Part shown: positions 8,514-27,413 of the stretch, piece by piece
How the letters are laid out: each line of letters begins with the position of its first letter
How positions within the stretch are numbered: the stretch's first letter is position 1
Assembly: GCF_900142475.1 (NCBI RefSeq)
Contig: NZ_FRAY01000003.1
Span: forward strand, 496,001 to 560,000
Direction: 5' to 3'
Origin: Fibrobacter sp. UWH4
GTDB taxonomy: Bacteria; Fibrobacterota; Fibrobacteria; Fibrobacterales; Fibrobacteraceae
Length of the DNA: 64,000 nucleotides
Notes under the pieces: generated by a model
Database searches by the model: none
Seen by the model: only the letters and a program-made list of their open reading frames with translations
What the model was told of the DNA's origin: nothing
Made by a program: the position numbers and the translations under genes

Positions 8514-9719
8514 ATGAAAAAACTATTTGCATTTGCAATGACTAGTGCTATGCTTATCGCCTGCGGCGATGACAATTCTTCGTCGGCAACAGAAGACATT
8601 TCATCGTCTTCTGAAGAAACGATTCTCAGCTCTTCTGCAGAGAAAAACGAGTCGTCTTCATCGCAATCTCAAAATACAAAGGACTCATTTTCTAACAATC
8701 AAGAAGAAAACTATTCATCTAGCGAAGCAATTGCTTCTAGTTCTAGCATCAATTCTTCGGAATCTCAAGAATCTTCTTCATCAAAAGAGAATACAACAAC
8801 TCCCTCGGTTAGCATAGACTTTGGCGAAGGCTACACCTACGCCATGGTATATCGGTATGACGAAACCACAGGATTCTTTTACCAGGGTTTAGAATCCTGC
8901 AACTACCACTCTGGCACCAAGACTTTCGCATGGGAAGAAAACGCATTGGCTCTCGACACAAACAAGATTACCATTGTCGGAGATTCCATGTGGACAGGAC
9001 CTGTCAAAAAAATGGTATCTGACGATCCTAATGAACAGATGTTTTACGACGCCTACAAGAACGTTGAAACATTGTCCTTGAGTACCGAACATAACGGCAT
9101 TTATGGAAAATGGAAAGCAACAGGCTGTCAGAGAATTATCGGAGAAACTGAAATCAAATGCACCGCCTCTATCGGCGGCCTGGAAGGTATTGCAAGAACT
9201 ATCACCATCACCCAGGATTCCGTATACAACACGACCGTAGTCGATTTAAGCAGCACCACTGGCAAAGAAGATAAATGGAATTTGGGCAATATTTTGGAAT
9301 ATAATCTCGGATTCGACATCGGTGATTTGATTGTCGATTCACTCGTAAAAGCCCAGGTAATAAAGGTCATTTCGGCATCAGAAATTTCTATCGGCAGCCA
9401 AACCTTCACTAGAGATGGTTCTGCCAAGTTTGACAAGACCGGCATGAATTACTACGAAACATTTTCCAGCAACGGCAAAACCTGCACAAAACACGAACAA
9501 TTAGGCGCCATTTCAAAGGAACAGTGCCTAGAAGGGAACGCCGACTTTCTGCTTAGCGCCCGCGGCGACAAGGAAGACTCATCCTACTACTACAAAGAAG
9601 GTCCTGTAGAAGGATTCAGCCTAGATAACCGCGAAGAATATTACGAATGTACAAAGAGCCTTGTAACAGAAGAGACTAAAAACATTCTCGAGCCTTTCGC
9701 CAGACATTATACGGACTAG
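8514..9719 (+). CDS. Lipoprotein with long Ser-rich linker, unknown function
   Basis: The ATG at 8514 follows CGAGGTG at good spacing; a GTG at 8505 is inside that site. The signal ends LIAC (Cys17). Residues 21-95 are a low-complexity linker of Ser runs with Glu/Asn, the type that tethers Fibrobacter surface proteins. The rest (about 300 residues) is a beta-rich region with paired cysteines (CNYHSG, TGCQRI, KTCTKHEQ, EQCLEG, YECTKS) and no recognised domain. It ends one base before tilS, so both may share a transcript. Expected location is the outer membrane. Function unknown. Confidence 0.75.
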   Translation: MKKLFAFAMTSAMLIACGDDNSSSATEDISSSSEETILSSSAEKNESSSSQSQNTKDSFSNNQEENYSSSEAIASSSSINSSESQESSSSKENTTTPSVSIDFGEGYTYAMVYRYDETTGFFYQGLESCNYHSGTKTFAWEENALALDTNKITIVGDSMWTGPVKKMVSDDPNEQMFYDAYKNVETLSLSTEHNGIYGKWKATGCQRIIGETEIKCTASIGGLEGIARTITITQDSVYNTTVVDLSSTTGKEDKWNLGNILEYNLGFDIGDLIVDSLVKAQVIKVISASEISIGSQTFTRDGSAKFDKTGMNYYETFSSNGKTCTKHEQLGAISKEQCLEGNADFLLSARGDKEDSSYYYKEGPVEGFSLDNREEYYECTKSLVTEETKNILEPFARHYTD

Positions 9720-9720
9720 A

Positions 9721-11076
9721 ATGATTACCGACGAACTTGCAAGCATCAAAAAACGAATCCTTGATTATGGTTTCAAGCGCCTGCTGCTTGCAGTTTCGGG
9801 CGGTCTGGATTCTATTTGCCTCGCGCATTATTTCATTGCAAACCGCGAAGCGCTTGGCATCGAATGGTTGGGAATCGCACATGTGCATCACGGGCTGCGG
9901 GTCGGAACAGCCGACCGCGACGCCGCATTTGTGGAAGCTTTCGCGCGCAAGTATAACGTTCCATTTTTCTTGAAGAAATTGGATGGCGAATCGCTGAAAA
10001 ATGCAGAAGGCTCGCTGGAAGAAAACGCACGAGACGCCAGGTACAAAGCGCTGGTCGAGATTGCTCTGGATCCTATCGCCTCTGCGAGGCTCCAGGATGA
10101 CACACTCCACACAGCACACTCCACACAGCACACCCCACACCTCAAAGGGAGCGAAGCGACCGACCCCATACCCCATACCACAAAGCAACCGAAGGTTGCG
10201 GCCCCACACCTCAAAGCAGCCGAAGGCTGCGACCTCACACCTCATCCCTCACTTGTCATTGTCACGGCGCATCATGCAGGCGACCAGGCAGAAACCATGT
10301 ACATGCGCCTCCGCCGCGGCACAACCCTCGCCGGCCTACGCGGGATTCAAGAAGTTCGCGTTCTAGACGAAGCCTCCCATACCCCAAAGCAACCGAAGGT
10401 TGCGACCCCATACCTCAAAGGGAGCGAAGCGACCGACCCCACACCCCATACCCCATCTCTCTATCGGCCCTTCCTTTCCGTCACCCGCGAAGACCTCCTC
10501 GCTTACGCCCGCGAGAATAATCTTGAGTGGTGCGAAGACGAGAGCAATTCCGATACCAAATTCGCAAGGAACTTTATCCGGCACGAAGCGCTCCCCCATT
10601 TAGAACGGAACTGTCCGGGGGCTACACGGCAACTTTGCCGGATTGCAGAACTTGCCGATAAGGCGTATGCGAAAGTGATGGAAAAATGCAACACGATGTT
10701 TCAAGAGACCCTTCCCCTGAAACAAGTTCAGGGTCAGGGTGACACGGCTCCATTCTCACACCTCAAAGGGAGCGAAGCGACCGACCTCACACCTCATACC
10801 ATCATCGCTTTGAACAAGAAGGCTCTCCGCAAAATTTTTCTCTCCCACGCAGACGCAGACCTTTCCGAAATGTTCCGTTTGTGGCTTTCGGAACTGGGAT
10901 TCCGCTTTCCAATAGGTTTCTTTTACAGCCAAACGGAGCCCGCCCATGTTAAAATTCCCGTACGCTCCGCTTACCGCAAGCGTTCTATCGTCAAAAAGGC
11001 CTCAACCGTCTTGGTTTGCGAATTTGAAGATGTTCAGACAGCGTCAAAATTTGTATCTTGCGGAATGAAAGAATAA
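9721..11076 (+). CDS. tilS: tRNA(Ile)-lysidine synthase with in-frame repeat insertions
   Basis: Attaches lysine to C34 of tRNA-Ile(CAU), an essential step for AUA decoding. The N-terminal PP-loop ATPase shows LAVSGGLDSICLAHYF, HVHHGLR, AREDARYKAL-like ENARDARYKAL, TAHHAGDQAETMYMRLRRGT and EDESNSDTKFARNFIRHEALP. Three low-complexity inserts interrupt it: about residues 116-176 (between ARDARYKAL and LVIVTAHHAGDQ), 218-248 (before YRPFLSVTREDLL) and 328-359. Each contains the peptide HLKGSEATDxxPHT or a close copy and is coded by dispersed repeat DNA. Without them the protein would be roughly 330 residues. The frame stays open and the motifs are intact, so it is probably functional. Confidence 0.93.
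   Translation: MITDELASIKKRILDYGFKRLLLAVSGGLDSICLAHYFIANREALGIEWLGIAHVHHGLRVGTADRDAAFVEAFARKYNVPFFLKKLDGESLKNAEGSLEENARDARYKALVEIALDPIASARLQDDTLHTAHSTQHTPHLKGSEATDPIPHTTKQPKVAAPHLKAAEGCDLTPHPSLVIVTAHHAGDQAETMYMRLRRGTTLAGLRGIQEVRVLDEASHTPKQPKVATPYLKGSEATDPTPHTPSLYRPFLSVTREDLLAYARENNLEWCEDESNSDTKFARNFIRHEALPHLERNCPGATRQLCRIAELADKAYAKVMEKCNTMFQETLPLKQVQGQGDTAPFSHLKGSEATDLTPHTIIALNKKALRKIFLSHADADLSEMFRLWLSELGFRFPIGFFYSQTEPAHVKIPVRSAYRKRSIVKKASTVLVCEFEDVQTASKFVSCGMKE
10066..10255. repeat. Repeat cluster 1 inside tilS
   Basis: First comes a half copy of the 89-bp hairpin element (CTGGATCC ... GGCTCCAGGATGAC, 10066-10101). Then two tandem 14-base units CACTCCACACAGCA, then CCTCAAAG-hairpin-GACC units whose cores are GGAGCGAAGCGACC, GCAACCGAAGGTTGC and GCAGCCGAAGGCTGC. 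All are in frame. Confidence 0.85.
10372..10462. repeat. Repeat cluster 2 inside tilS
   Basis: Two CAAAG-hairpin-GACC units, with cores GCAACCGAAGGTTGC and GGAGCGAAGCGACC, separated by CCCATACCTCAAAG and followed by tandem ACCCCATACCCCAT. In frame with tilS. Confidence 0.85.
10703..10798. repeat. Repeat cluster 3 inside tilS
   Basis: A palindromic CCCTGAAACAAGTTCAGGG motif followed by CACCTCAAAGGGAGCGAAGC and ACCTCACACCTCAT. In frame with tilS, in the linker between its catalytic and C-terminal parts. Confidence 0.8.
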
Positions 11077-11085
11077 AAGGATTTT

Positions 11086-13230
11086 ATGAGTCAAGAAAAA
11101 AAATCGCCCCCTTACCGTAGCAAGAACTTTATCATTTTACTGGTGATGATTCTCCTGTTGTTCGTCATGTTCCCGCTTGCCGGGAAAGACGGAGAATCGG
11201 ACATTACGCGCACCGAATTTTTGGCCATGATGGGCGACTCCACCAAGGTCATTACCGAACTCACTCTGCAAAAGACCCCCGACGGCGTGATTATCGAGGG
11301 CCAGCGCGAGATGAGCCCCGAAGAGATTGCCGAAGCGAAAAAGAACCGCAGCGCCCTCGCCCGCTTTACCAAGTCTAGCGATGACAACGGCAAGACCAAG
11401 CGTTTCAAAAGCCACATGCTCGAAGTGAGCAACGACCAGATTACCGCCTGGGAAATGTACAAGGGCGTCAAGGTCAAGGTCATCCACGAATCCAGCACCT
11501 GGCTCGACACGATTATCGCGTTCCTCCCCGCGATTCTCTTGATTGTATTCTTCTACTTCATGATGAACCGCCAGATGGGTGGCGGCGGCAAGAGCCCCTT
11601 CAGCTTTGGCAAGAGCCAGGCCCGCCAGCTCAACGGCAAGCAGAAGACCACCTTTAACGACGTGGCCGGTTGCGACGAAGCCAAGCAGGATTTGCAGGAA
11701 CTCGTGGAATTCCTGAAGGACCCGAAAAAGTTCGATGCCCTCGGCGGACGCATTCCGAAGGGTGCGTTACTCGTCGGTCCTCCGGGTACCGGTAAGACAC
11801 TCCTCGCCCGCGCGGTGGCAGGCGAAGCTGGAGTGCCGTTCTTCAGTATGTCCGGTTCCGACTTTGTAGAAATGTTCGTGGGCGTGGGTGCTAGCCGCGT
11901 GCGCGACCTCTTTGAAACCGGCAAGAAGAATGCCCCGTGCATTCTGTTTATTGACGAAATCGACGCCGTGGGTCGCCAGCGTGGAGCAGGTCTCGGTGGC
12001 GGTCACGATGAACGCGAACAGACCTTGAACCAGTTGTTGGTGGAAATGGACGGCTTTACCGCCAACGAAGGCGTCATCTTAATTGCGGCAACTAACCGCC
12101 CCGACGTGCTCGACAAGGCACTGCTCCGCCCGGGCCGCTTTGACCGCCAGATTGTGGTGGGACTCCCCGACCTCAAGGGCCGCGAAGAAATCTTGAAGGT
12201 GCACCTGAAAAAGCGCAAGGTGCCGCTGGCCGACGACGTAGACGTGAAAGCCGTAGCCAAGGGAACCCCCGGACTTGCAGGTGCAGACCTCGAAAACCTG
12301 GTGAACGAAGCAGCCCTTTTGGCCGCGCGCTTCAACAACAAGAAAGTCACGATGCTCGACTTTGAAGAAGCCCGCGACAAGCTCAGCATGGGTGCCGAGC
12401 GCCGCACACTCCTGATGACCGACGAGGAAAAGCGTCACACCGCCTACCACGAAGCAGGCCACGCTTTGATGACGCTTTTGTGCAAGCATTCTGACCCGCT
12501 CCACAAGATTACGATTATCCCGCGCGGGCGCGCCCTCGGCGTGACCATGAGTCTGCCCGAACGCGACCAGGTGAGCTACAGCCGCGAATACGCCGAAGAA
12601 CGCATCATGATCATGATGTCTGGCCGCCTCGCCGAACTCATCTTCTTCAACCACCAGAGCACGGGAGCCAGCAACGACATCCAGCGCGCTACCGAACTTG
12701 CCCGCAAGATGGTGACGGAATGGGGTTTCGACGACGAAATCGGGCCAGTCTGCTACAGCCGCACCGACGGCGAAGTGTTCCTCGGTCGCGAAATCAGCAA
12801 GCCGAAGGAAATGTCCGAAATGATGGCCGAAAAGATCGACAACGCGGTGAACAACCTCATCAAGCGTCTGGACCAGGCCGCCAAGAAACTCATCGAAGAG
12901 AACAAGGACAAACTCATTGACCTCGCCGAAGCGCTGTTTGAATTCGAAGTGCTCGACCGCGAAGAAATTGACCGCGTGATGGCCGGCGAAAAACTGACCG
13001 GCACCAAGAAGAGCCGCCAGTACAAGGCGCTCGAAGAAATGGAAGAAAAGAAGAAGCGCGAAAATACGCCGCCGCCTGACCCGGGCAAACAGCCACCGGT
13101 AGCACCGGTCACTGATGCACCCGTAGCCGAAATCAAGCCCGCGCCCGCCGCCGGAACGACTCCGGCAAACAATGACGCCCATACCGAAACGCTGAAATCA
13201 TCTGAAGACGCAAAACAGGAAAATTCGTAA
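11086..13230 (+). CDS. ftsH: ATP-dependent zinc metalloprotease FtsH
   Basis: Membrane-anchored AAA+ protease that degrades misfolded membrane proteins and short-lived regulators. Domains of the 714-residue chain: first membrane helix (residues 14-31), periplasmic segment, second helix (about 143-161), AAA+ module with Walker A GPPGTGKT, Walker [12 protein letters not shown] and the arginine-finger region RPGRFDRQ, then the M41 protease with zinc motif HEAGH near residue 457. The C-terminal 60 residues are Pro/Ala/Lys-rich ([20 protein letters not shown]) and probably unstructured. It begins 9 bases after tilS and overlaps folP by one base, so tilS-ftsH-folP-cdaA form one operon. Confidence 0.98.
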
Positions 13231-14126
13231 TGTTCAAAGAAGTTCTGGATCATAGCCGCTCTCTCCCGTGGAAAATCGGCAACAAGGTTCTGCCTTGCAA
13301 GACCCCGCTGATCATGGGTATCGTGAATGTGACTCCGGACAGTTTCTTTGACGGTGGCAAGCACAACAAGCCTGACGCCGCTTACGAACACGCCCTGATG
13401 CTCCTGGAGCAAGGCGCCGAAATCTTAGACATCGGTGGCGAAAGCAGCCGTCCAGGAAGCGCACCAGTCAGCCTGCAAGAGGAACTGGACCGCGTGTGCC
13501 CCGTGGTGGAACGCCTTGCCAAACTCGCCAAAAGCGGCTACAGCAGCGGCGGAAAGCCCCGCGAATTCTACATCTCGGTCGATACGGTCAAGGCGAAAGT
13601 CGCCGCAGAGACCATGAAACTCGGCGCACACATCATCAACGACATCAGCGCCTGCGCCATGGACCCGAACATGCTCCAGACCGTCGCTGACACCAAGGCC
13701 GCCGTGGTACTCAACCACATCCGCGGGAACTTCGGCACCATGCAGCAGGACTTCAAACCATACACGAACGTGGTGCAGGAAGTCCGCGAAGAACTCTTGT
13801 CGCAGGTGAAAAAGCTTTTGGACCTCGGCGTCGAGCGCGAAAAAATTTGCATTGACCCGGGCATTGGATTCGGGAAAACCGCGCAGGACAACATCGACTT
13901 GATGAAATCCACCGAAGAATTCCTGAAAGACGGCTACCCCGTTCTCATCGGGACCTCGCGCAAGTCCTATATTGGTAAAATGCCCGGCCTCGAAAATAGC
14001 GACCGTCTGATTCCGACCGTTACAGCGGGAATCGTTGCCGTACTCGGTGGCGCCAGTTGCATTCGCGTGCATGACGTGAAAGAGGCCAAGGAATCTCTGC
14101 TTTATTTGGAGGCTCTGAGAACATGA
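13230..14126 (+). CDS. folP: Dihydropteroate synthase
   Basis: Joins p-aminobenzoate to dihydropterin pyrophosphate in folate synthesis and is the sulfonamide target. The 298 residues show both family signatures: IMGIVNVTPDSFFDGG near residue 29 and LDIGGESSRPGS near residue 66, then ISVDTVKAKVAAE, HIINDISA and CIDPGIGFGKT. Its start overlaps the ftsH stop codon and its end overlaps cdaA by 4 bases, so it is translationally coupled on both sides. An N-terminal extension of about 25 residues precedes the first beta strand. Confidence 0.97.
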   Translation: MFKEVLDHSRSLPWKIGNKVLPCKTPLIMGIVNVTPDSFFDGGKHNKPDAAYEHALMLLEQGAEILDIGGESSRPGSAPVSLQEELDRVCPVVERLAKLAKSGYSSGGKPREFYISVDTVKAKVAAETMKLGAHIINDISACAMDPNMLQTVADTKAAVVLNHIRGNFGTMQQDFKPYTNVVQEVREELLSQVKKLLDLGVEREKICIDPGIGFGKTAQDNIDLMKSTEEFLKDGYPVLIGTSRKSYIGKMPGLENSDRLIPTVTAGIVAVLGGASCIRVHDVKEAKESLLYLEALRT

Positions 14127-14965
14127 TTCTGTTTAAGCTATTCGGGATTATCGATGTGCGTCCGGCAGATATTCTGGACGTGCTCCTGATTTCGATTATC
14201 ATTTACTACATCTTCTTGCTGTTCCGCGGAACCCGCGCCGCCCAGATGATTTTCGGTGGATTACTCTTGATTCTCGCCTGGATTATTGCGCAGTGGTGGG
14301 AACTCCATACCGTCGTGTGGCTTATCAGCAACCTTGCAACCCTCGGTATTATCGCTCTCGTGATTCTTTTCCAGCCCGAAATTCGAAGCGCCCTTACCCG
14401 TATCGGTCAGGCCGCCAGTAAGCTCGATTTCCACAACCTGTTTTTCCATTCGAGCGGCCTCGACGAAATCACCAAGACAATCGCTAGCGCCTGCCAGGAC
14501 TTGGCAAAAACGCACACGGGTGCCCTGATTGTACTTGAAAAGCGCGTGGGCCTGCGTAACTACGCCGACACCGGTGAAATCTTGGATGCCCGAATCAGTT
14601 CTAGACTTTTGCGCGCCCTCTTCTTCCCGAATTCCGCTTTGCACGATGGTGCAGTCATCATGAACACCAAGCGCATTATTGCCGCCGGCTGTATCTTGCC
14701 CATGCCCACCGGTAACGCCGAAAAAGAAGCGGGCTACGGTATGCGTCACCGCGCCGCCAAGGCTCTCGCCGCCGAATGCGACGCCCTCGTGATCGTGGTG
14801 TCCGAAGAAACGGGCTACATCTCTATCGCCTACCGAAACACGCTGCGCCGAAACATCAGCGTCGCCGAACTCAAGCAAGAAATTATCCGCCACTGGGGCG
14901 AACTCTTTAACGACGTGCGTGAGTCGGCTAAGGCCGAAATTGCAGAAGAAGGTGCGAGGAACTGA
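14123..14965 (+). CDS. cdaA: Diadenylate cyclase (c-di-AMP synthase)
   Basis: Makes the second messenger cyclic di-AMP from two ATP. Three hydrophobic helices occupy residues 15-90 (membrane anchor of CdaA type), followed by the DisA_N catalytic domain with both essential motifs: LHDGAVIM (DGA) near residue 175 and GMRHRAA (RHR) near residue 208. The 280-residue length is normal for CdaA. In Firmicutes cdaA precedes ybbR and glmM; here it follows ftsH and folP and is trailed by a coiled-coil SUMF1-like protein. c-di-AMP usually controls potassium and cell-wall balance; targets are not in this window. Confidence 0.96.
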   Translation: MILFKLFGIIDVRPADILDVLLISIIIYYIFLLFRGTRAAQMIFGGLLLILAWIIAQWWELHTVVWLISNLATLGIIALVILFQPEIRSALTRIGQAASKLDFHNLFFHSSGLDEITKTIASACQDLAKTHTGALIVLEKRVGLRNYADTGEILDARISSRLLRALFFPNSALHDGAVIMNTKRIIAAGCILPMPTGNAEKEAGYGMRHRAAKALAAECDALVIVVSEETGYISIAYRNTLRRNISVAELKQEIIRHWGELFNDVRESAKAEIAEEGARN

Positions 14966-15002
14966 GGTTTGAGGTCGCTTCGCTTTGAGGAATGAGGAAT
15001 CT
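14963..15002. repeat. Single copy of the CCTCAAAG-hairpin-GACC repeat
   Basis: Reverse orientation of the family found in tilS: the complement reads CCTCAAAGCGAAGCGACCTC with a minimal GC-GAA-GC core, flanked by TTCCTCATTCCTCA. It lies in the cdaA/SUMF1-like gap. Confidence 0.7.
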
Positions 15003-15014
15003 AAGGAAAATTTT

Positions 15015-16259
15015 ATGACTGAAAAAAACAACGAAGAGCAGTTGAAGAATAAACGCAAGAAAAAGAATATTGCGATTCTCGTGTTGATGTTCCTCTTGCT
15101 GGTGACCCTTTTTATTGTGCAGTGTCACCTGGACCAGATCAAGCAAGACGCCCTGGCCAAAGAACAAGAAACCGCCCTTGAAATGCAGCGGCGCCACACG
15201 CTGGATAGCCTCCGCGCCCTGGAACAGGCCCGCGCCGACAGTATCCGTATGGCTGACTCACTGGCAAGACTCAGCGCTGACAGTTTGCGCCTCGCCGATA
15301 GCCTGCGTGTAGCAGACTCGCTTGCCGCCCTCAAGAACAACGTGAACCGCGACAGCATCCGTCACGTGCGCGACAGCCTGAATCACATCAAGGACAGTCT
15401 CGCCGCCATCGAAAAGGCTCGCCAGGATAGCCTGCAGCGCATCGCCGATTCCTTGGCCGTCATCGAAAAAGCCAAAGCCGACTCTCTCGAAAAGAAGCGC
15501 ATTCAAGACAGCATCCGTGCTGCCGACCAGGTGCCGCCCGTTGCCGAAATTGCACCGCCCGCAGGCCGTTACTATGCCCCCATCAAGCTCAAGGTCAAGT
15601 GCGAAGAAATCAAGTGCAAGACATTCCTCTCCATTGGCGATACGCTCCACGCCCAAGAAGCGGGCAAAGCCATTGAATACAACAAGACCGGAAGCGTATT
15701 CTTCTACGCCGTGGACTCCGTGGGGAACCGCTCCGCCTGGGAAGAAGCCAAGTACGACATGGCCAGCGACAACGTTTGCGGCAAGAACGCCTACCCCGTT
15801 CCGCTCGGAGGCAAGACCGTTTGCGTAGACGCCTACGAATACCCGAACAAGGCCGACGAACTCCCCCGCGACATGGTGAGCCAGGAACAGGCCGCAAGCC
15901 TGTGCCAGCAAGAGGGCAAGCACCTCTGCAGCCTCGCCGAATGGCAGGCCGCCTGCAAGAGCAAGGACAACACGCGTTACAGCTATGGAGACAGCTACAA
16001 GCAGAGCAAGTGCAACACCAACACCAAGGCCGCCAAGCGCAGTGGCCGTAAGGAGCAATGCCGCAGCTGGTACGGCATGTACGACATGAACGGGAACCTT
16101 TGGGAATGGACTTCGACTACGAGCAAGGATCACCCGAACATGTACCTAGTCGCTGGCGGTGCCTGGAACACCAACAACGAAAGCAAGTGCACCGACAACA
16201 AGTTCAGTTTCTACCCGCAGAACCAATACCCGAACGTCGGTTTCCGCTGCTGTAAATAA
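15015..16259 (+). CDS. Membrane-anchored coiled-coil protein with SUMF1/FGE-like domain
   Basis: The ATG at 15015 follows AAGGAAAA; an upstream ATG at 14985 lies in repeat DNA. The 414 residues contain a basic start (KNKRKKK), one membrane helix (about 18-36), then roughly 110 residues of heptad-like repeats in which DSL or DSI recurs (RADSIRMADSLARLSADSL), a likely periplasmic coiled coil. The C-terminal half is a formylglycine-generating-enzyme-like (SUMF1) fold: GKTVCVDAYEYPNKADELP, CSLAEWQAACKS, MYDMNGNLWEWTS, VAGGAWN and GFRCCK. The two Cys of the true FGE active site cannot be confirmed, so a structural or binding role is as likely as catalysis. It follows cdaA and may be in that operon. 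Confidence 0.8.
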   Translation: MTEKNNEEQLKNKRKKKNIAILVLMFLLLVTLFIVQCHLDQIKQDALAKEQETALEMQRRHTLDSLRALEQARADSIRMADSLARLSADSLRLADSLRVADSLAALKNNVNRDSIRHVRDSLNHIKDSLAAIEKARQDSLQRIADSLAVIEKAKADSLEKKRIQDSIRAADQVPPVAEIAPPAGRYYAPIKLKVKCEEIKCKTFLSIGDTLHAQEAGKAIEYNKTGSVFFYAVDSVGNRSAWEEAKYDMASDNVCGKNAYPVPLGGKTVCVDAYEYPNKADELPRDMVSQEQAASLCQQEGKHLCSLAEWQAACKSKDNTRYSYGDSYKQSKCNTNTKAAKRSGRKEQCRSWYGMYDMNGNLWEWTSTTSKDHPNMYLVAGGAWNTNNESKCTDNKFSFYPQNQYPNVGFRCCK

Positions 16260-16287
16260 TTCCAATAGAAATTTTGTGACATCACCT

Positions 16288-16312
16288 TGTCGCCTAGAGA
16301 GGCGACATTCTT
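16288..16312 (+). terminator. Probable terminator of the ftsH-cdaA operon
   Basis: TGTCGCC (16288-16294), loop TAGAGA, GGCGACA (16301-16307), then TTCTTTCT. It lies 29 bases after the stop codon of the SUMF1-like gene. Confidence 0.65.
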
Positions 16313-16360
16313 TCTGCTGCGTCATTGATCGCCGCAAAGCAATGAACCGTTTTTAGCTGA

Positions 16361-16840
16361 GTCATCCTGGAGCCTCAGAGAGGCGGCGGGATCCAGAAGA
16401 AGCATTTTTCGATGGATTCCCTCCCTCGCTACGCTCAGTCGAGGATGACGCAGGGTGCACGCTCAGCCGCGTCAGAAGCCGAAAAGTAAAGAACCTCTTT
16501 CAACAGAGTCATCCTGGAGCCTCGGATAGGCGACGGGATCCAGAAGAAGCATTTTTCGATGGATCCCCTCCCTCGCTACGCTCAGTCGAGGATGACGCAG
16601 GGTGCGAACTCAGTCGAGGATGACGTGGGGTGCGCGCTCAGCCGCGTCAGGAGCCTAAAAGTAAAGAACCTCTTTCAGCAGAGTCATCCTGGAGCCTCGG
16701 AGAGGCGACGGGATCCAGAAGAAGCATTCTTCGATGGATCCCCTCCCTCGCTACGCTCAGTCGAGGATGACGCAGGGTGCGCGCTCAGTCGAGGATAACG
16801 CGGGGAGTGCACTCAGTCGAGGATGACGAGAAACGGCATA
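16361..16840. repeat. Three 89-bp hairpin elements in a 480-bp gene-free array
   Basis: Copies at 16361-16449, 16508-16596 and 16683-16771 are each exactly 89 bp. They start GTCATCCTGGAGCCTC and end CGAGGATGAC, an 8-bp perfect terminal inverted repeat. Inside, GGGATCCA pairs with TGGATCCC in copies 2 and 3, and GAAGAA pairs with TTCTTC around GCA in copy 3, so each can fold into one long hairpin. Spacers share GCGCTCAGCCGCGTCAG and AAGTAAAGAACCTCTTTCA, so the larger repeat unit is 147-175 bp. Extra half motifs CTCAGTCGAGGATGAC follow at 16604-16619, 16784-16798 (with one change) and 16812-16828. No gene is seen from 16260 to 16862. Confidence 0.92.
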
Positions 16841-16862
16841 CGCACAGCGGAGCACTTAAGGT

Positions 16863-18212
16863 CTACACGACCTTGAATGCCTGCGTGCGAGGAACGCCCT
16901 TGCCGCTTTTCACCTTAGCCTTACCGGGCAAAATCATGAGCACCTTTTCCATACGGGTGCCGTCCATCTTGAGCACGCGGAAGGTGTAACCCTTGATAGT
17001 GACTTCTGCACCCGGTGACGGAATAATGCCGAGCGTCGCCTGAATCAGGCCCGAAAGCGTTTCCACGTGGGAATTTTCGGGAGCTTCGAGTTCCACGCCG
17101 AGCTTGTATTCCAAATCGGAAAGCGTAATGACCGGATCGAGAATGAAGCGCCCGTCCTTGAGGCGCTGCACATCTTCATCTTCGTCCATGTCATCTTCGT
17201 CCTTGATTTCGCCCACGATTTCTTCGAGAATGTCTTCGAGCGTGACAAGGCCAGCTGTTCCGCCATATTCATCGACCACGATGGCGAGCTGGTTACCCGT
17301 CTTGCGCAGTTCGGTGAGCATGTCGTCAATCTTCTTGTGGTACGGCACGAATACCGGCGGCATCACAAGTTTTATGATATCAAACGGTTCGTCGCGATGT
17401 TCCGTGTACCATTCCAAAAAGTCGCGGTTCGAAAGGATTCCGACGATGTTATCGACAGTTTCCCTGTACACCGGCAAGCGGGAATGGCGTTCGGTATTCA
17501 GCACCTTCACCAGTTCTTCGAGCGGCGTTCCCACTTCGACCGCGCACATATCCACGCGCGGAGTCATAATTTCGCGCACCGGAGTTTCCACGAAGTCGAA
17601 GATGTTCAGAATCATCTGGCGCTCTTCCTGTTCCAGGCCTTCACCATCGGGATCCGCCTCGTCCGAGAGGTCGGCCTGCGCCTGCACGGCGTCGCGGCGT
17701 TCTTCAGGCAAGAAGCTGAGCTTGGAATCGTAACCCAGCCCCTTCAAAATCTTGACGAACAGCACATGGCAAATCTTTGCGGGCAAAGCAAACGGGAGTC
17801 GAATAAACTTGAACAGCGGAATCAGCACAATCGCAAAGGTATCCGGCTTCAAATTGCCAAGCAAGTTCGCCAAAAAAACCGTAATCGTGTAGATTGCAAA
17901 GCAGGCAACCACCAGGTAAGCGGCAAAAGCCAAGAACCAGTAGTCCTGCACCCAGTTCCAGGGGATCATCTGGAACAGATAAAATCCGAGGACGCCCGCC
18001 CCCACATTGCAAAGGATGCGGCCAATCGAAATCGTCTCGTTAAAGCCCGGCAGTTCCACCAACGAGGCGACCACCTCTTCGCGACCTTCACGGTCACGGG
18101 CATCGCGCTTGGCATATATTCCGCTAAAGGCGGACTTGATCAGCGAAAACGAGAACGAGGTCAGGACAAAAACGACAAGGAATGCAATGGCCCAACTTTC
18201 GGGATTTTCCAT
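16863..18212 (-). CDS. CorC/HlyC-type CNNM-CBS membrane protein
   Basis: The 449 residues hold an N-terminal CNNM-like membrane domain with about four helices (residues 8-26, 62-84, 92-120, 124-150), a CBS-domain pair (REIMTPRVDMCAVEVG near 220 and PPVFVPYHKKIDDMLTELRKTGNQLAIVVDEYGGTAGLVTLEDILEEI split around 290-330) and a C-terminal CorC_HlyC domain (FILDPVITLSDLEYKLG). The family is linked to magnesium or cobalt efflux and, in some bacteria, to haemolysin-like activity; a transporter role is inferred. Its start overlaps the ybeY stop by one base, matching the frequent ybeY-corC pairing in bacteria. Confidence 0.93.
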   Translation of the reverse strand: MENPESWAIAFLVVFVLTSFSFSLIKSAFSGIYAKRDARDREGREEVVASLVELPGFNETISIGRILCNVGAGVLGFYLFQMIPWNWVQDYWFLAFAAYLVVACFAIYTITVFLANLLGNLKPDTFAIVLIPLFKFIRLPFALPAKICHVLFVKILKGLGYDSKLSFLPEERRDAVQAQADLSDEADPDGEGLEQEERQMILNIFDFVETPVREIMTPRVDMCAVEVGTPLEELVKVLNTERHSRLPVYRETVDNIVGILSNRDFLEWYTEHRDEPFDIIKLVMPPVFVPYHKKIDDMLTELRKTGNQLAIVVDEYGGTAGLVTLEDILEEIVGEIKDEDDMDEDEDVQRLKDGRFILDPVITLSDLEYKLGVELEAPENSHVETLSGLIQATLGIIPSPGAEVTIKGYTFRVLKMDGTRMEKVLMILPGKAKVKSGKGVPRTQAFKVV

Positions 18213-26327: not shown

Positions 26328-27413
26328 ATGATTACTCGCTTCATTGACCGCAATTTTGCTAACATGCGCCTCGACCGTTTTTTGCGCAAGGCATTCCCCG
26401 ACGAATCGCTGTCGGTCTTTTTCGCCGTCATCCGCAAGAAGAAAGTCCGCGTGAACGGCGTCGTTGGTAAAGCGAACCAGATGCTGCAGGAAGGTGATAC
26501 CGTCTGCATCTACGAGAATTTCAAGAGCGTCGAAAACAATTCGGATTTCGGAATTCAGAATTCAGAAACCAAAGACATCGTTGCGAGTTCCGAAGGAACG
26601 AAGCAACCCAGCACCGGTTTTGCAAAAGCAAAGTCCACCTGGGGCAAAACAGACGAGAGACTAAAGACGAGAGACGAAAGGAACGCTTCTTGGGGTGCCA
26701 AGGAACTCGACATTGTCATCCAGACCGAAGACTATGTGGTCGTGAACAAACCCTCGGGACTTGCAAGCCAGCCGGGTTCCGGCACTCGCCCCGGCGAGAG
26801 CCTCGTGGAATACCTATGGGAATGGGGCCGCCGCGAAGGACTTGACTTCAAGCCCACCATCGCCCACCGCCTCGACCAAGAAACTTCGGGCATGATTATC
26901 GCCGCCCTCCACGGCGACACGCTCCGCGACTTTACTCGCATGATTCGCGAACACGAAGTTGACAAGTTCTATTACGCGCTCGTCAAAGGCAACCTCAAAA
27001 AAGACAAGGGAACCATAAACGAAACGCTCACCCGCACCGACGCCGCCAAGGGCAGCAAGATGAAGGTCGGCGAAACCGGCAAGGATGCCCAGCAGGCAAT
27101 CACCCACTACCGTGTCAAGCAGCATTACGAAGGCTACGACCTGGTAAAAATCAAGCTCGAAACGGGTCGCATGCACCAGATCCGCGCCCATTTCGCAAGC
27201 ATCGGACACCCGCTCCTCGGCGACACTCGCTACGGCGATTTTGCGCTCAACCGCGAAGTCAAAAAACAGCTCGGGCTGCACAGGCTCTTCTTACACAGCT
27301 GTCGTCTAGAATTTGTATGGCACGGCGACAAAATCGTACTCGATTGTCCGCTCCCCAAGGAACTGCAAAGCGTCGTGGACCAACTAAAGCCTATTCGCCA
27401 CGAGCACCGATAA
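26328..27413 (+). CDS. RluA-family 23S rRNA/tRNA pseudouridine synthase with in-frame repeats
   Basis: Converts specific uridines to pseudouridine in rRNA or tRNA. An S4 RNA-binding domain (residues 8-60: MRLDRFLRKAFPDESLS, KKVRVNGVVGKANQML) is followed by the catalytic domain with YVVVNKPSGLASQPGSGT, the active-site HRLDQETSGMIIAA near residue 182, KFYYALVKG, and the C-terminal LETGRMHQIRAHFASIGHPLLGDTRYG. Between the domains, residues 70-125 are low complexity and coded by three repeat types (see separate entry). Which rRNA position is modified cannot be told. No Shine-Dalgarno site is evident; the gene begins right after a repeat. Confidence 0.92.
   Translation: MITRFIDRNFANMRLDRFLRKAFPDESLSVFFAVIRKKKVRVNGVVGKANQMLQEGDTVCIYENFKSVENNSDFGIQNSETKDIVASSEGTKQPSTGFAKAKSTWGKTDERLKTRDERNASWGAKELDIVIQTEDYVVVNKPSGLASQPGSGTRPGESLVEYLWEWGRREGLDFKPTIAHRLDQETSGMIIAALHGDTLRDFTRMIREHEVDKFYYALVKGNLKKDKGTINETLTRTDAAKGSKMKVGETGKDAQQAITHYRVKQHYEGYDLVKIKLETGRMHQIRAHFASIGHPLLGDTRYGDFALNREVKKQLGLHRLFLHSCRLEFVWHGDKIVLDCPLPKELQSVVDQLKPIRHEHR
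26534..26697. repeat. Three repeat families side by side inside the pseudouridine synthase gene
   Basis: TTCGGATTTCGGAATTCAG then AATTCAG (family also at 31.4 and 55.5 kb); then a nested hairpin GTTGC-GA-GTTCC-GAA-GGAAC-GAA-GCAAC; then GACGAGAGACTAAAGACGAG and AGACGAAAGG (family also at 47.3 kb). All lie in the S4/catalytic linker and are in frame. Confidence 0.8.

Follow-up and report, generated by a model that had tools for sequence, protein, structure and literature searches.

The locus raises the question of how the gene for an enzyme that is normally essential, tRNA(Ile)-lysidine synthetase (TilS), comes to carry dispersed repeats within its reading frame. The window, a 64,000-nucleotide stretch of the Fibrobacter sp. 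UWH4 genome, contains an ORF at 9721-11076 (+) of 451 aa that was identified as TilS (TIGR02432, E 2.4e-47) and is the only TilS match in a search of that genome. Its Pfam ATP_bind_3 match (PF01171) falls into two stretches because foreign sequence splits the PP-loop domain. An earlier note, made from the letters of the window, had claimed about 120 residues of in-frame repeats in three places; this was borne out, with about 100-115 extra residues spread over three sites, amounting relative to the empty form to about +59 aa at site 1, +31 aa at site 2 and +12 to +25 aa at site 3. The repeat-derived parts are as follows.

10066..10251 (+): site 1 insert, from helix RDARYKALVEI to strand VIVTAHHA; 83 aa (empty form, between the same anchors: 24 aa)
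10066..10102 (+): site 1, REP hairpin monomer CTGGATCC..CCAGGATGACA, translated as ALDPIASARLQDDT; folds as an interrupted hairpin
10103..10140 (+): site 1, tandem CACTCCACACAGCA (14 = 2 x 7), twice at 10103-10130 (TRF), continuing as a CACACCY heptamer array
10141..10165 (+): site 1, CTCAAAG-hairpin-GACC unit, from pattern matches
10181..10200 (+): site 1, CAAAG-CAACC-GAA-GGTTG hairpin unit with a degenerate left end; stem from folding
10210..10234 (+): site 1, CTCAAAG-hairpin-GACC unit with stem GCAGCC/GGCTGC, from folding and pattern matches
10372..10455 (+): site 2 insert, from RGIQEVR to YRPFLSVTR; 50 aa (empty form, between the same anchors: 19 aa)
10385-10404 and 10414-10438 (+): two site 2 hairpin units of the CAAAG/CTCAAAG type amid heptamer sequence
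10702..10800 (+): site 3 insert in the linker to the C-terminal domain, with a hairpin at 10708-10744 and a CTCAAAG unit at 10762-10786

Six CAAAG/CTCAAAG hairpin units are thus present, and all three sites have them. The REP monomer, the two copies of CACTCCACACAGCA and the hairpin units lie where the earlier note had placed them, although its inventory missed the second hairpin at 10708-10744 and the 7-bp period of the linking arrays.

The same note had expected these segments to recur elsewhere, also between genes, and they do. BLAST searches with the tilS segments gave 27 further matches across the genome of 3.70 Mb, the best with E 7.5e-13. The REP monomer at 10066-10102 has many genome copies, three of them in an array at 16.3-16.8 kb of the window, and 47 exact CTCAAAG..GACCYCA units were counted genome-wide, 4 of the 47 inside tilS, against 0 for a reversed-pattern control. 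In a survey of repeat content across 464 kb and 332 ORFs, which complemented the genome searches, 9 of the 332 ORFs had any internal stretch with at least two intergenic copies, compared with 0 after codon shuffling; tilS had 263 bp of such sequence in five segments and the next ORF 39 bp in one. A structural scan for REPs in other ORFs gave matches at chance level only, and Rfam gave no match over 9000-17500.

Some features of the repeats themselves were also noted. CTCAAAG-...-CGACC units across the genome of the window (at 10141, 10210, 10414, 10762, 26279 and 30881 in the window) have constant ends and a variable palindromic core; a perfect stem of at least 4 bp was found in 24 of 40 distinct units, compared with 5% after shuffling, and 15 different stem sequences were seen. 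The intergenic region 16331-16828 consists of REP dimers in tandem with a period of about 147-175 bp, each half being similar to the tilS REP monomer.

TilS matches were found in 58 of 61 Fibrobacter genomes, and the resulting alignment has 59 rows, with genomes representing one per species (many of them metagenome bins) and no within-species strain pairs. One bin, G001, has two tilS genes; the copy located on a contig of 7.5 kb has a score equal to that of the gene from another species (G065) and is probably contamination. Over the genus, the length between anchors ranges from 24 to 107 residues at site 1 (RDARYKAL to TAHHA), from 19 to 124 at site 2 (RGIQ to RPFL) and from 20 to 87 in the site 3 linker, where the empty form has about 20-33 aa; the largest repeat-derived additions come to about 230 residues, encoded by what was once non-coding DNA. 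The repeat families filling the sites differ by species, and include LDPSTPLRSAQDD, SNSQGVAGLASEAPLEGVMEDRATGCNQGETSPT and TPHTxxLKGSEATDP, together with the heptamer-array peptides LVSRLSSLVS and IINHPSSIINHQS and a repeat that is translated in two frames, as GDPRLRGDD or EIPAYAGMT. Of 93 informative site sequences longer than 110 bp, 31 had a clear period-7 array; among the same 93, no real array of period 5, 6, 8, 9 or 10 was found, the single match at each being a run of N.

Site 1 is empty in the main-clade species L032, L034, L036 and L038 and in several early-branching rows. Judging by these comparisons, the empty sites are the ancestral state, because the alignment of empty-site TilS with the Aquifex and E. 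coli enzymes (1wy5, 1ni5) is nearly gapless, with gaps of at most 2-4 residues at sites 1 and 2, and because the remaining genera of the family have no inserts at these places, only short loops, with a site 1 gap of at most 27 nt compared with 186 nt in the window. Two of the three insert sites are universal TilS loops and not arbitrary places. On a tree built from 245 core columns with inserts excluded, the minimum numbers of changes at sites 1, 2 and 3 are 7, 10 and 11, figures that are approximate since this was a quick tree with many weak branches. Over 20 syntenic loci, the net length change of TilS runs from -105 to +22 aa, whereas its neighbours FtsH, FolP and DacA vary by -7 to +8, -8 to +2 and -2 to +1 aa, respectively. 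These alignments show in-frame repeat insertion to have occurred repeatedly at the same three places of tilS across the genus, with recurrent gains and losses. A genus alignment had been one of the checks proposed in the earlier note, and it revealed no common conserved insert: presence, length and family vary and some sites are empty. Neither outcome that the note had named as speaking against its claim, uniformly conserved inserts or segments without other copies, was therefore observed.

Evidence that the repeats have moved recently was sought within individual genomes. The inserts of G006 and G001, which have the largest TilS, gave about 48 and 44 matches outside tilS in their own genomes, with identities reaching 99% across 93 bp and 100% across 56 bp. 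For the 72-bp site 3 insert of G059, its own genome contains an identical copy outside tilS, flanked by ORFs of about 375 and 293 aa, and 10 further copies at 84-92%. A close allele, L037, lacks exactly 51 bp from the middle of the hairpin of this insert, the flanks being nearly identical, and a similar inner element interrupts the site 1 hairpin in L016 and not in L043. Comparisons of this kind show recent mobility of the tilS repeats, including precise nested insertion, although for single pairs such as L028 and L037 deletion instead of insertion is possible. In the junction alignments examined, no obvious terminal inverted repeats with target-site duplications, the criterion for MITEs, were seen. 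A Y1/RAYT transposase (Y1_Tnp, PF01797) was rejected as the mobilizer, being absent from the genome of the window and from the strongly inserted genomes G059, G006, G045 and G051; across the genus the domain is absent from 41 of 61 genomes and present in 20, mostly in open frames of 150-180 aa. Template switching from repeat to repeat, or nesting, would fit the nested insertions.

The account that we favor, with a probability of roughly 0.85 for the whole, is that dispersed repeats insert, three TilS loops tolerate them and the enzyme is kept. Several short dispersed repeat families of Fibrobacter (REP-type hairpins, CTCAAAG-hairpin-GACC units and 7-bp arrays) would insert at many places, and selection would purge most insertions in genes. 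The three loops of TilS (one from the ARYKAL helix to the TAHHA strand, one from RGIQ to RPFL, and the linker that leads to the C-terminal domain) may accept almost any peptide, and frame-keeping insertions there would for this reason be retained. Retained insertions could then become targets in their turn: more repeats could nest in them, and arrays could expand or be deleted. The repeats would be translated, probably as disordered loops, with TilS remaining active. The structure model of TilS is weak (pLDDT 60.6, pTM 0.46, with AlphaFold models of low confidence) and so goes only as far as to suggest that the inserts are disordered.

The reading frame bears on this account. For the sense REP tag G(A/G)ATGAC in tilS, 84 occurrences were counted in phase 2 and 29 in phase 1, such that 0 of 113 tags fall in phase 0, the one that gives TGA, as would be expected if frame-breaking insertions were removed. 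With respect to orientation, REPs in tilS are almost exclusively sense (about 125 to 2 by tag count, 18 to 0 by hairpin scan), unlike the intergenic codirectional REPs, of which 2 are sense and 6 anti. This bias is left unexplained by the frame because reverse insertion would leave open frames too; stop codons alone do not account for it, which suggests something beyond passive tolerance.

Such one-sidedness lends some weight to an adaptive reading, in which the translated repeats tune TilS, through tRNA binding or stability, or its expression, through mRNA hairpins or through heptamer arrays that switch the frame on and off. The prominence of TilS among the 332 ORFs and among its neighbors would agree with such a role, as would the fact that 7-bp arrays are in frame at certain copy numbers only, and one allele (L055) is frame-broken next to a truncated hairpin. 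However, close relatives differ in the sequence, length and family of their inserts, several species have no insert at one site or at two, and the frame is open in nearly all alleles, the broken ones coming from draft bins. Adaptation was accordingly considered unlikely. We infer that the inserts have been retained through tolerance rather than benefit, and passive tolerance of three loops combined with ongoing repeat movement was judged the best account.

Were tilS a pseudogene or dispensable, it might gather repeats neutrally, and its large indels and few broken frames (an assembly gap in L046, shifts in L049 and L055) could be read in this way. This is highly improbable, and for most species refuted, given that the TilS rows share invariant motifs in the ATP and tRNA domains and that about 50 species have an open frame. 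In addition, the gene is single copy in the genome, the stop phase is avoided, and the share of ATA among Ile codons (655 of 7410, or 8.8%) calls for a tRNA that decodes AUA. TilS with inserts is predicted to stay active. That the inserts are repeat-induced assembly artefacts is scarcely credible even though many genomes are short-read bins in which repeats can mislead assembly, as contigs of 1-2 Mb (G004, G030, G045 and G047) and many independent assemblies have these sites filled, always with the inserts in frame and the neighbors unaffected.

The repeats were compared with known systems. RPEs are short palindromic repeats that lie in frame in genes of likely functional proteins and also between genes (PMC3733652), and in-frame REPs within genes are described from Rickettsia conorii and O. 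terrae (PMC3733652). The Fibrobacter repeats are likewise both intergenic and in frame inside conserved genes, and the host protein, which is predicted to function, keeps its motifs. Unlike RPEs, they belong to another phylum, comprise several unrelated classes including 7-bp arrays, and concern one gene at three fixed loops over a whole genus; the comparison with Rickettsia RPEs drawn in the earlier note thus holds as an analogy, but not as membership of a Rickettsia family.

Likeness is also seen with the CGTC REPs (Di Nocera et al. 2013, PMC3733652), which have a CGTC, TGTC or CCTC tag at one end, an 8-9-bp stem beginning with AT and a loop of 4-5, are without a dedicated transposase and have known intragenic members (PMC3733652). 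Fibrobacter GATCCCCGCC..GGGGATGACA repeats have a TGTC tag, an 8-bp AT-initial stem and a 4-base loop, and the tilS inserts end in GATGACA or GATGACG, the reverse complement of TGTCATC or CGTCATC. The stem of GAGATCCCCGCCTGCGCGGGGATGACA agrees (8 bp, loop of 4), whereas that of the window copy at 10066-10102 does not (5 + 5 bp, interrupted), and the tail differs from the CCA of CGTC REPs. With regard to Y1_Tnp, the transposase type covered, the genome of the window matches the lack of a dedicated enzyme. The main text of PMC3733652 makes no mention of Fibrobacter. The heptamer direct repeats of Cyanobacteria and Beggiatoaceae form period-7 arrays, with mixed units in some genomes, and are mostly intergenic (PMC4679880); the Fibrobacter arrays are also tandem with period 7, but differ in sequence, link hairpins and are translated inside an enzyme. 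As with REPs mobilized by RAYTs (REPtrons), the Fibrobacter hairpins are dispersed and clustered; unlike them, they occur in genomes that lack Y1_Tnp.

No relevant paper describing such repeats in Fibrobacter was found among the open-licence papers searched. Novel points are the phylum involved, the combination of hairpins with heptamer arrays, and the hotspot that three fixed loops of a single core enzyme form throughout the genus. In these free-living gut bacteria, short dispersed repeats have extended the protein sequence of a core enzyme time and again at the same loops. The natural variants, which number in the dozens and range from empty to over 200 added residues, make it possible to test the capacity of the enzyme for random sequence, as well as the movement of CGTC-type REPs without a known transposase. 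It is conceivable, if speculative, that Fibrobacter harbors a system with no known transposase that is directional and nesting, whose units have constant ends and a variable palindromic core (CTCAAAG-palindrome-CGACC), for which TilS would be a preferred target and in which inserts or 7-bp copy number would alter TilS output.

Repeat-like sequence was also seen in a few other proteins. In an RluA-type pseudouridine synthase (26328-27413 of the window), heptamer-type repeats (NSDFGIQNSE, DERLKTRDER) lie in the linker from the S4 to the catalytic domain. A LysE-type translocator (L106:12486-13568, -) carries a REP in frame but in reverse orientation (ECHPERSHEVTESKNLG), along with repeat-like sequence ahead of its domain, and a 531-aa membrane protein (L105:8438-10033, -) contains three repeat-like segments (RNSEFGARNSELI, SSKQPKVATSSL and LPTVYCLLPTFF).
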